Positions 15,841 through 16,947 of a stretch of DNA of 56,579 nucleotides are shown here, piece after piece (position 1 is the first letter of the stretch; each line of letters opens with the position of its first letter). The notes beneath the pieces were generated by a model. The model was not told the DNA's origin and did not search any database. It worked only from the letters and a program-made list of their open reading frames with translations. Source of the DNA: a virus; the IMG/VR virus record IMGVR_UViG_3300015371_000043, positions 1-56,579 of that record; one strand, written 5' to 3'. The position numbers and the translations under genes are program-made.

Positions 15841-15979
15841 GCTAGCGGTTGGGCCGGAGAAGCATCGGTTATCTCCTACTAAGAGAGAGACCCGGGTTCG
15901 AATCCCGGCATCACCTTCGGGTGATGTAGCTCAGCGGATAGAGCACTATGCCGATCTTCGCACCACGCCCGCCGCTAGC
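15841..15979 (+). ncRNA. Y RNA unit A with tRNA-like head
   Basis: The closing stem is GCTAGCGG-tt-GGGC (15841-15854) with GCCC-g-CCGCTAGC (15967-15979). The Ro-binding internal loop has CGGA on the 5' side and GCACCAC on the 3' side. The upper stem is GAAG-c-ATCGG (15859-15868) with CCGATCTTC (15951-15959). The head holds a T arm (CCGGG-TTCGAAT-CCCGG, 15892-15908), a 7-bp acceptor-like stem capped by a TTCG tetraloop (15909-15926) and a D arm (GCTC/GAGC, 15929-15944). The Y stem takes the place of the anticodon arm. TCTC-CTACTAA-GAGA (15872-15886) could be a small anticodon-like hairpin. TTTT follows, so the unit may self-terminate. Confidence 0.92.
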
Positions 15980-15983
15980 TTTT

Positions 15984-16055
15984 CCTTGGGCCGGAAGATT
16001 CTGGGTTATCCCGCATACGGATGCCAACAGTCCCAGAGTCGCAAACATGCCTGGG
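15984..16055 (+). ncRNA. Y RNA unit B, minimal (no tRNA-like head)
   Basis: It has the same start motif, TTGGGCCGGA. The upper stem GATTCTGGG (15997-16005) pairs over 9 bp with CCCAGAGTC (16032-16040). A 3' GCAAACAT-GCCT matches the Ro-site strand of the other units. The closing pairs are CC-tt-GGGC with GCCT-g-GG. The loop contains TTATC and a small GCAT/ATGC hairpin, but no T arm or acceptor. At about 72 nt it resembles a small animal-type Y RNA. ATTTT follows (16056-16060). Confidence 0.8.
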
Positions 16056-16069
16056 ATTTTCAGTCTTTT

Positions 16070-16132
16070 GCTTGGGCCGGAGGAGACGGGTTACCTCTAC
16101 CAACGGATCCCGCCACCAACAACACGCCCGGC
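16070..16132 (+). ncRNA. Y RNA unit C, minimal
   Basis: GC-tt-GGGC (16070-16077) pairs with GCCC-g-GC (16126-16132). The Ro-site strands CGGA and AACAACAC are kept. The upper stem is CGGG (16087-16090) with CCCG (16109-16112) plus flanking pairs, closing an 18-nt loop that starts with the Y RNA signature TTACC. At about 63 nt it is the shortest unit and has no tRNA-like head. A separate hairpin (CGCCTC-GGCAA-GAGGCG, 16148-16164) lies between C and D. Confidence 0.75.
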
Positions 16133-16147
16133 GCTATAGACTGAACT

Positions 16148-16164
16148 CGCCTCGGCAAGAGGCG
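16148..16164 (+). other. Small hairpin between Y RNA units C and D
   Basis: A 6-bp perfect stem, CGCCTC/GAGGCG, closes a GGCAA loop. It is isolated between two Y RNA units and could be a processing signal or a weak terminator. No T-run follows. Confidence 0.5.
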
Positions 16165-16171
16165 CACAAGA

Positions 16172-16291
16172 GAGAGGGTGGGCCGGAGTAGGTGGATTAT
16201 CCATCGTCCGCAGGACGATTAGCTCAGACAGAGAGCGCCGGGTTTTTAGCCCGGAGGTCGGAACGCCACTTGCGCAACACGCCCCCTTCTC
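16172..16291 (+). ncRNA. Y RNA unit D with Lys(UUU)-like tRNA head
   Basis: The closing stem is GAGAGGG-t-GGGC (16172-16183) with GCCC-CCTTCTC (16281-16291). The upper stem is GTAGGTGG (16188-16195) with CCACTTGC (16266-16273), and GCAACAC is the Ro-site strand. The head has an acceptor-like stem ATCGTCC/GGACGAT (16203-16209, 16213-16219) joined by GCA and a D arm GCTC/GAGC (16222-16236). It also has a complete anticodon arm CCGGG-TTTTTAG-CCCGG (16238-16254) with U33 and anticodon UUU. The T arm is missing: the Y stem leaves the head there. TTTTT follows at 16293-16297. Confidence 0.9.
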
Positions 16292-16307
16292 CTTTTTGAT
16301 AGCCTCG

Positions 16308-16447
16308 CTAATCGAGTGGGCCGGAGAGGTCAACGGTTACCCTGGTAAGAGCACCGGCATAGCCGGAGGTAGCGGGTTCAAGTCCCGTCGCGTCCATTCC
16401 TCGGGCGCGAAGCTCATACCGTTCCTCGCACCACGCCCCTCTGATAG
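16308..16447 (+). ncRNA. Y RNA unit E, tRNA-like head opened at the D loop
   Basis: The lower stem includes GAG-t-GGGC (16314-16321) with GCCC-CTC (16435-16441), extended by CT/ATC pairs. The upper stem is GAGG-tc-AACGG (16326-16336) with CCGTT-CCTC (16419-16427), and GCACCAC follows. The head has D-stem halves GAGC (16349-16352) and GCTC (16412-16415) on either side of the Y stem, with a D-loop-like CTGGTAA. The anticodon-type stem CCGGC/GCCGG (16354-16366) has its loop cut to AUA. The T arm is GCGGG-TTCAAGT-CCCGT (16372-16388), and the acceptor-like stem CGCGTCC/GGGCGCG (16389-16409) has a 7-nt loop. Confidence 0.9.
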
Positions 16448-16470
16448 GTTTGATGCGCGTTGCAAGTGCA

Positions 16471-16613
16471 AGAAGGTGGGCCGAAGAGTTACGGTTACCA
16501 CGATAAGCTGCGGGTCGCGGGTTCAAGTCCCGCCGTCGCACTCCCGAAGGGCGACGTAGCTCAGTTGGAGAGAGCAGCAGCCAGATTCCGTTCTCGACCA
16601 CATGCCCCCTTCT
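16471..16613 (+). ncRNA. Y RNA unit F, tRNA-like head opened at the anticodon loop
   Basis: The closing stem is AGAAGG-t-GGGC (16471-16481) with GCCC-CCTTCT (16604-16613). The upper stem is GAG-TT-ACGG (16486-16494) with CCGT-T-CTC (16588-16595), and GACCACAT is the Ro-site strand. The head has an anticodon stem GCTGC (16507-16511) with GCAGC (16577-16581) and a T arm GCGGG-TTCAAGT-CCCGC (16517-16533). It also has acceptor-like CGTCGC/GCGACG (16534-16539, 16551-16556) and a D arm GCTC/GAGC with an AGTTGGAGA loop (16559-16575). The Y stem replaces the anticodon itself. Confidence 0.92.
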
Positions 16614-16627
16614 GATAGTTTCTCGGC

Positions 16628-16773
16628 TCGCGGTTGGGTCGAAAGAGACTCGGTTATCCGTTGACTGGTTCGATTCCGGTACCGCCCTTACGAGGGCGGT
16701 AGGCGACAAGGTGTCGCAAGATGCTTGCATCTGATGGGTGCAAACTCCGACCTCACAAACACATCCGCCGCGA
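16628..16773 (+). ncRNA. Y RNA unit G, tRNA-like head opened in the variable region
   Basis: The closing stem is TCGCGG-tt-GGGT (16628-16639) with ATCC-g-CCGCGA (16763-16773). The upper stem is GAG-AC-TCGG (16645-16653) with CCGA-C-CTC (16747-16754), followed by ACAAACAC. The head has a T arm ACTGG-TTCGATT-CCGGT (16664-16680) and acceptor-like ACCGCCC/GGGCGGT (16681-16700). A D-like hairpin GCGAC-AAGGT-GTCGC (16703-16717) and a stubby anticodon-like hairpin GATGC/GCATC (16720-16731) complete it. The Y stem joins between the anticodon-like and T arms. Confidence 0.88.
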
Positions 16774-16792
16774 AATACCTGCAAATAAGCAC

Positions 16793-16820
16793 TTGATTTT
16801 CCTCGGCGGTTTGTTATAGT
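16793..16820 (+). promoter_or_regulatory. Promoter of Y RNA unit H and Ro60
   Basis: TTGATT (16793-16798) and TATAGT (16815-16820) are separated by 16 bases. Transcription should start near 16827-16828, right at the first paired bases of unit H. Unit H would thus be the 5' end of the Ro60 mRNA or be processed from it. Confidence 0.68.
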
Positions 16821-16829
16821 GGTTTAGCT

Positions 16830-16947
16830 CCACTTGGGCCGAAGGGCAAGTCGGTTACCTTCACAGCGAAGCCGTCCAACGAGGCGGCTATTGAAAAGCA
16901 AGCCCGTGATGCTCGGGCTAACCCGACTCCCACACCATGCCTGGTGG
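16830..16947 (+). ncRNA. Y RNA unit H, next to the Ro60 start
   Basis: The closing stem is CCAC-tt-GGGC (16830-16839) with GCCT-g-GTGG (16939-16947). The upper stem is GGG-ca-AGTCGG (16844-16854) with CCGACT-CCC (16923-16931), and ACACCAT is the Ro-site strand. The head is more degenerate: CTTC-ACAGC-GAAG (16859-16871) in T-arm position, GCCGTC/GGCGGC acceptor-like (16871-16888), a weak D-like TTG/CAA and AGCCCG-TGATGCT-CGGGCT (16901-16919). The 7-nt loop lacks U33, so it is not a usable anticodon. It ends 34 bases before the Ro60 ATG. Confidence 0.85.

Follow-up and report, generated by a model that had tools for sequence, protein, structure and literature searches.

How is a tRNA-like head joined to a Y RNA, and can the junction differ between RNAs of one array? 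A cluster of Y RNAs upstream of a phage Ro60 gene raises this question. The initial annotation proposed that six of its units carry tRNA-like heads and that the Y stem leaves these heads from different arms, so that a tRNA fold is shown to Ro60 from different sides. Our analysis covered the window, a 56.6 kb virus record that encodes portal, head and tape-measure proteins, together with related loci. Threading, compensatory changes and recurrence in other phages support the proposal for five units, A, D, E, F and G. It is unsupported for the sixth, H. The five heads are circular permutants of one sealed-acceptor cloverleaf mounted on a Y stem.

A Y RNA array beside a phage Ro60 gene

Eight Y RNA units, six long and two short, occupy positions 15841-16947 (Table 1). 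The array is bounded by a 66-codon open reading frame ending at about 15834 and by the Ro60 gene, which begins at the end of unit H, so that the array adjoins the Ro60/Rsr gene as YrlA does. Both domains of the Ro60 protein score above the Pfam cut-offs, and its homologs in the PDB include 9nen, 1yvp and 2nvo (E values of 2e-101 or better). The gene after Ro60 encodes a portal protein (phrog_776).

The units share the pattern GGGCCGRAG, stem, GGTTAYC, head, stem and CACGCCC. All eight have this stem pattern, a conserved lower stem with an internal loop that is predicted to be of the Ro60-binding type. A detector based on the stem found seven of the eight units and no other match on either strand of the window; unit D was recovered once a 1-nt shift was allowed. 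The heads of A, D, E, F, G and H are 68-93 nt long, and B and C have short loops.

Scans of the array revealed two promoter-like sites, one of them on the plus strand before H, and two terminator-like sites, both on the minus strand. These numbers are near chance. TAnnnT elements located 14-22 nt ahead of several units are suggestive only. A spacer with a GCAAGAGGCGCACA element is conserved before unit D (window 16150-16177; L001 and L002), and a pattern built from this spacer matched in known relatives only.

Table 1. Positions of the Ro60 gene, the Y RNA units and their arms in the window, and of inverse permutants at other loci
Feature	Position	Strand	Y stem, exit or detection	Arms and other details
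Y unit A	15841-15979	+	Y stem 15841-15868/15951-15979; exit at D/anticodon junction (position 26)	anticodon-like hairpin 15872-15886; T arm 15892-15908; acceptor 15909-15926; D arm 15929-15944
Y unit B	15986-16054	+	Y-unit detector	without tRNA head; RF01656 20 bits, under gathering
Y unit C	16072-16131	+	Y-unit detector	without tRNA head; RF01656 24.5 bits, under gathering
Y unit D	16174-16290	+	Y stem at T-arm position; T arm absent	sealed acceptor 16203-16219; D arm 16222-16236; anticodon arm 16238-16254
Y unit E	16316-16440	+	exit at D loop	split D stem, 3' strand GAGC 16349-16352 and 5' strand GCTC 16412-16415; anticodon stem with 3-nt loop 16354-16366; T arm 16372-16388; sealed acceptor 16389-16409
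Y unit F	16476-16609	+	exit at anticodon loop, canonical YrlA topology	anticodon stem GCTGC/GCAGC 16507-16511/16577-16581; T arm 16517-16533; acceptor 16534-16556; D arm 16559-16575
Y unit G	16629-16772	+	exit at variable arm	variable-arm-like 8-bp helix TATCCGTT/GATGGGTG 16655-16662/16733-16740, between anticodon-like hairpin and T arm; T arm 16664-16680; sealed acceptor 16681-16700; D-like arm with GG 16703-16717; anticodon-like hairpin 16719-16732
Y unit H	16830-16947	+	Y stem	two hairpins, 16870-16889 and 16902-16918 (loop TGATGCT)
Ro60 ortholog (TROVE + vWA), 555 aa	16937-18604	+	Pfam TROVE and vWA_Ro60	first gene past array
Inverse permutant	L173:3604-3733
Inverse permutant	L175:2887-3860
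Inverse permutant	L168:3096-3374
Inverse permutant	L188:6204-6328
Inverse permutant	L202:226-346
Inverse permutant	L204:3579-3933
Inverse permutant	L172:691-812
Inverse permutant	L025:1155-1281
Inverse permutant	L032:365-490	-
Inverse permutant	L122:7497-7622
Inverse permutant	L125:3507-3628

Permuted cloverleaves in five heads

A threading routine scored each head as a sealed-acceptor cloverleaf, trying every possible cut in turn and using the spacings and hallmark bases of ordinary tRNAs. These spacings and hallmarks were picked after viewing the window, and the identical routine was run on shuffles and on all other loci. For 4,880 dinucleotide shuffles, the 99.9th percentile is 21.7 and the maximum 23.75. 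Unit A scores 35.1 (cut at position 26), F 33.35 (anticodon loop) and E 30.55 (D loop), all above the null maximum. G also exceeds it, with 29.9 for a cut in the variable region versus 28.4 for the anticodon-loop alternative. D, read as acceptor-D-anticodon with the T arm lost, scores 23.75, which equals the overall null maximum, the maximum for its own class being 20.6; its tRNA reading leans on its orthologs. The cuts indicate that the exit point differs between units, as first proposed. The threading also agrees with the exits first proposed for E and F, F keeping its acceptor, D, T and anticodon stems.

A T arm, a sealed acceptor and a D arm are present together in A, F, G and E (with the D stem split in E). 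They are not in D, which is missing the T arm, nor in H, B and C. The loop sealing the acceptor-like stem is TTCG in A, GCA in D, ATTCCTC in E, 11 nt long in F and 6 nt long in G. Sealing had been claimed for all six heads; it holds for these five. H, which had been grouped with G as opening in the variable region, threads at 11.8, inside the null, has no T arm and lacks U33 in its hairpin loop. Its reading as a variable-region permutant was rejected on this score and its tRNA reading is unsupported.

The claim that A replaces the anticodon arm had to be abandoned. Unit A retains a local anticodon-like hairpin, TCTC-CTACTAA-GAGA. We examined 39 T-acceptor-D heads, drawn from many phages, for a local hairpin with 4 bp or more and a 7-nt loop immediately ahead of the variable region. 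Such a hairpin occurs in 17 of them, compared to a mean of 1.5 and a maximum of 6 in 1000 permutations. The loops of hairpins with stems of at least 3 bp (n=20) have T33 in 19, a purine at 37 in 19, A38 in 18 and C32 in 16. Loss or simple replacement of the arm was rejected on this test. A-type heads keep a small anticodon arm, and their exit is the D/anticodon junction. Since the anticodon varies among them, no single tRNA identity is mimicked.

In the F-type group the anticodon stem closes across the Y stem; 8 heads have 5 bp or more in this stem, against a mean of 1.4 and a maximum of 6 after permutation. The same closure is found in the Rfam YrlA consensus structure. The exit of G resembles a class II variable arm with the Y stem on top. 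Its helix, TATCCGTT/GATGGGTG, is found in all three distinct orthologs, with one bulged base in L001 and L002, and shows no covariation among the window and the two other distinct arrays. In two G orthologs anticodon-loop threading outscores the variable-region reading, and by score alone the two readings are close.

Standard searches largely miss these heads. ARAGORN found no tRNA and no tag-peptide gene on the native strand of the window, and called tRNAs in the doubled heads of A, F and G. The units are not cloverleaves of normal order with a free acceptor end: the acceptor is sealed, and only permuted or doubled heads are called. The sole Rfam match above threshold in the window, a tRNA match at 16213-16396 (30.6 bits), was rejected as a chimera of the 5' half of D and the 3' half of E, each unit having its own sealed acceptor. 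The minimum free energy folds of window F (-47.6) and G (-59.9) differ from the tRNA-like ones, which have energies of -45.6 and, for a partly specified target, about -46.8. The corresponding folds of D, E and F in L001 and of E in L002 show most of the proposed arms, and that of the L001 F ortholog shows all of them.

YrlA (RF02553), a bacterial Y RNA reportedly described by Chen and colleagues in 2014, with a structure said to be entry 6CU1, is among the closest known RNAs. Like the window units, it adjoins Ro60/Rsr, has the GGGCCGRAG...GGTTAYC...CACGCCC Y stem and carries a head with a T arm, a sealed acceptor and a D arm. The topology of unit F, the only one whose Y stem continues from the anticodon stem, is identical to that of YrlA. 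In contrast to YrlA, the window combines several exits in a single array: those of D, E and G differ from the YrlA exit, and A, which also exits elsewhere, keeps an anticodon-like hairpin missing from the Rfam consensus. F (38.4 bits) and A (32.9 bits, with a match spanning T-acceptor-D) do not reach the RF02553 gathering score of 69, and a search of D, E, G and H gave no match. Both F and A lie close to YrlA, although they score below the Rfam threshold. Neither the exits of D, E and G nor an array with mixed exits was found in Rfam or in the part of the YrlA literature examined.

Other known RNAs were compared as well. Simple bacterial and animal Y RNAs and the nematode sbRNA (RF01656) share the lower stem motif with all units, of which B and C have only a short loop; these families lack a tRNA head, and the matches of B and C to RF01656 are weak and under threshold. 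In the circularly permuted tRNA genes of red algae and archaea, the acceptor halves are joined by a linker, which is removed to make a mature tRNA. The window heads are likewise permuted with linked acceptor halves; in them, however, the second break is filled by the Y stem, and the linker measures just 3-11 nt. tmRNA and permuted tmRNA (RF00023 and RF04321) also contain a partial tRNA domain inside a larger RNA, but their matches in the window reach only 16.3 and 19.4 bits (threshold 47 each), and ARAGORN detected no tag-peptide gene.

Conservation and recurrence of the exits

Three related contigs (L001, and the nearly identical L002 and L003) share the array in the same unit order, and their Ro60 proteins are 82-85% identical. 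Besides the window there are only two distinct orthologous arrays, so the covariation counts are small; the helices were aligned by hand. Across these arrays the pair columns with both bases changed number 7 in A, 7 in D, 8 in E, 3 in F and 3 in G, Y stems included. The double-changed pairs fall in acceptor, T, D or anticodon stems; the arms of A covary in both L001 and L002, and E also covaries. Pairs are broken in the Y stem of D and once in the G hairpin. Neither a common attachment site nor a lack of covariation in the arms, either of which would have contradicted the initial annotation, was observed.

Each unit keeps its exit across the orthologs alongside these compensatory changes. The D arm of L001 unit A has a different sequence (GTCTAGTGGCCAAGGAC) and the topology is unchanged. 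The T-acceptor-D order of G is kept in L001 and L002. Heads have also been gained and lost: F is missing in L002, the T arm is lost in window D, and the D arm is lost in E of L001 and L002. In unit H, a hairpin, GCCCG-TGATGCY-CGGGC, is shared with L002, and L001 has a different head.

The orthologs changed the reading of D. The proposal that D lacks the T arm and keeps the anticodon arm is correct for the window, where the D loop lacks GG and the anticodon loop is 7 nt long (TTTTTAG). The D orthologs retain the T arm and match the Rfam tRNA model with 53.5 bits (L001, positions 6-65 only) and 48.0 bits (L002), which indicates that D is derived from a tRNA. Because the T arm is present in two distinct relatives, the exit of D is the T/acceptor junction. 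GG is absent from the D loop of both D-type heads without a T arm (window D and L010 at 2101, which scores only 16.8) and present in five of the five T/acceptor heads with a T arm. In E of L001 and L002 the D stem is lost and GG is kept. This coupling, although small in numbers, fits an elbow between the D loop and the T loop.

We also scanned viral contigs and annotated phages, obtaining 182 distinct unit calls with some noise, or 218 once bacterial loci were included. The classified heads over threshold, counted with close duplicates such as L002 and L003, comprise exits at position 26 (n=22), the anticodon loop (n=14), the D loop (n=3), with the D arm lost (n=3), canonical (n=2), the variable region (n=2), T/acceptor (n=1) and T-lost (n=1). 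An independent D-loop exit is found in L094 (+3323, score 29.1). Directed searches yielded further heads, of T/acceptor type in L024, L032 and Mycobacterium phage Myrna and of variable-region type in L024, L249, L250 and L253, and refound the variable-region head of L084. Every exit of A, D, E, F and G recurs in unrelated phages. Exits are mixed in the arrays of the window, L001, L002, L010, L024, L038, L084 and L094. A T-loop exit was sought across the scanned loci and not found (best score 19.9).

The Myrna head (NC_011273 94710-94781; L261:795-925 and L266) scores 32.8 and is annotated as a tRNA, 'Sup TTA'. The neighboring 'tRNA-Met' (94903-94977) is by eye a Y unit too, with the Y stem as its acceptor. 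The tRNA cluster of Myrna, a laboratory phage of Mycobacterium smegmatis mc2 155, holds a position-26-type Y RNA as well as the T/acceptor-type one, and its relative Bigswole encodes Ro60. In Gordonia phage GMA2, a Pistol ribozyme (56.8 bits; L013:5467-5523) lies in a tRNA cluster with unannotated Y RNAs. In a cyanobacterial metagenome-assembled contig (L183:5712-9576), Ro60 is followed by a dense run of tRNA genes; this may be a phage contig binned with the genome.

The circle is also opened at the acceptor. About 15 such units are found in Ro60 loci of bacterial metagenome-assembled genomes and in the phage contigs L025, L032, L122 and L125, near Ro60. Here the order is inverse, with the 5' tRNA part, the Y 3' strand, a short loop, the Y 5' strand and the 3' tRNA part. 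A sealed Y hairpin is inserted after the D arm and the acceptor is open. With introns allowed, ARAGORN called tRNAs in 14 of the 15. The inverse unit of L173 is isolated between ordinary Y RNAs and is thus not a misreading of its neighbors.

Possible roles of the permuted heads

We consider it probable that these RNAs are Ro60 adaptors with tRNA-derived heads that present the elbow in several orientations. The RNAs would be transcribed and would bind the phage Ro60, and each closed head would fold as a tRNA elbow in which the D-loop GG contacts the T loop. The phage Ro60 would then carry several tRNA mimics in different orientations. They may recruit or occupy host proteins that recognize the elbow, including modification enzymes and RNA-decay enzymes such as PNPase, much as is reported for single YrlA RNAs in bacteria. 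Rsr binds YrlA, which TruB and DusA modify, and PNPase is tethered to Rsr by a Y RNA (PMC8394870, PMC4726728). In several phages Ro60 sits inside a tRNA cluster or next to one. Such clusters are a likely source of the heads, which probably arose by capture of tRNA pieces from them. More tentatively, Ro60 may serve as a phage hub on which each permuted mimic, with a different face free, has its own partner among the host's tRNA-binding proteins or defence enzymes.

The heads could instead be decoys, uncleavable or slowly cleaved mimics mounted on Ro60 to titrate anticodon nucleases or other toxins that target tRNAs, with the permutants covering several binding modes. The acceptors are sealed, E-type heads have anticodon loops shortened to 3 nt (window) or 4 nt (GCAA, L094), and the F loop is replaced by the Y stem. 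Hughes et al. suggested that the YrlA head, itself no substrate, could competitively inhibit an anticodon nuclease (PMC7790460). However, A- and D-type heads have intact 7-nt loops with U33 and varied anticodons, which could be cut, and the genes scanned near the array include no defence or tRNA-repair gene. The difference between intact and cut or replaced loops limits a simple anticodon-nuclease story. We regard the decoy explanation as less likely than the adaptor reading, though still live.

Alternatively, only a closed elbow on a Y stem matters, and duplicated units captured tRNA pieces in varied registers, giving faces without separate functions. The elbow and sealed acceptor are common to most topologies, heads were gained and lost between orthologs, and bacterial loci have the circle opened even at the acceptor, all consistent with such neutral permutation. 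Against it, orthologous units have changed in compensation while retaining their own exits and their order in the array, and the rare exits turn up again in phages that are unrelated. Like the decoys, neutral permutation is a live but less likely alternative. That the heads are degenerate tRNA genes or chance tRNA-like fragments between simple Y RNAs is very improbable: phages at large are rich in tRNA genes and the one above-threshold Rfam match is the D/E chimera, but the scores beat the shuffles, every head lies inside one Y stem, the stems covary and the order is conserved.

The permutants form a natural set for asking which face of a tRNA is read by individual tRNA enzymes and by defences that target tRNAs. 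Such RNAs escape current RNA models and phage annotation or are given wrong names, as in Myrna, where one is called a suppressor tRNA. The analysis suggests that almost any loop of the tRNA fold, except the T loop in our sample, can be opened and rejoined while selection retains the fold as a Ro60-linked mimic. The set also bears on what phage Ro60 is for.
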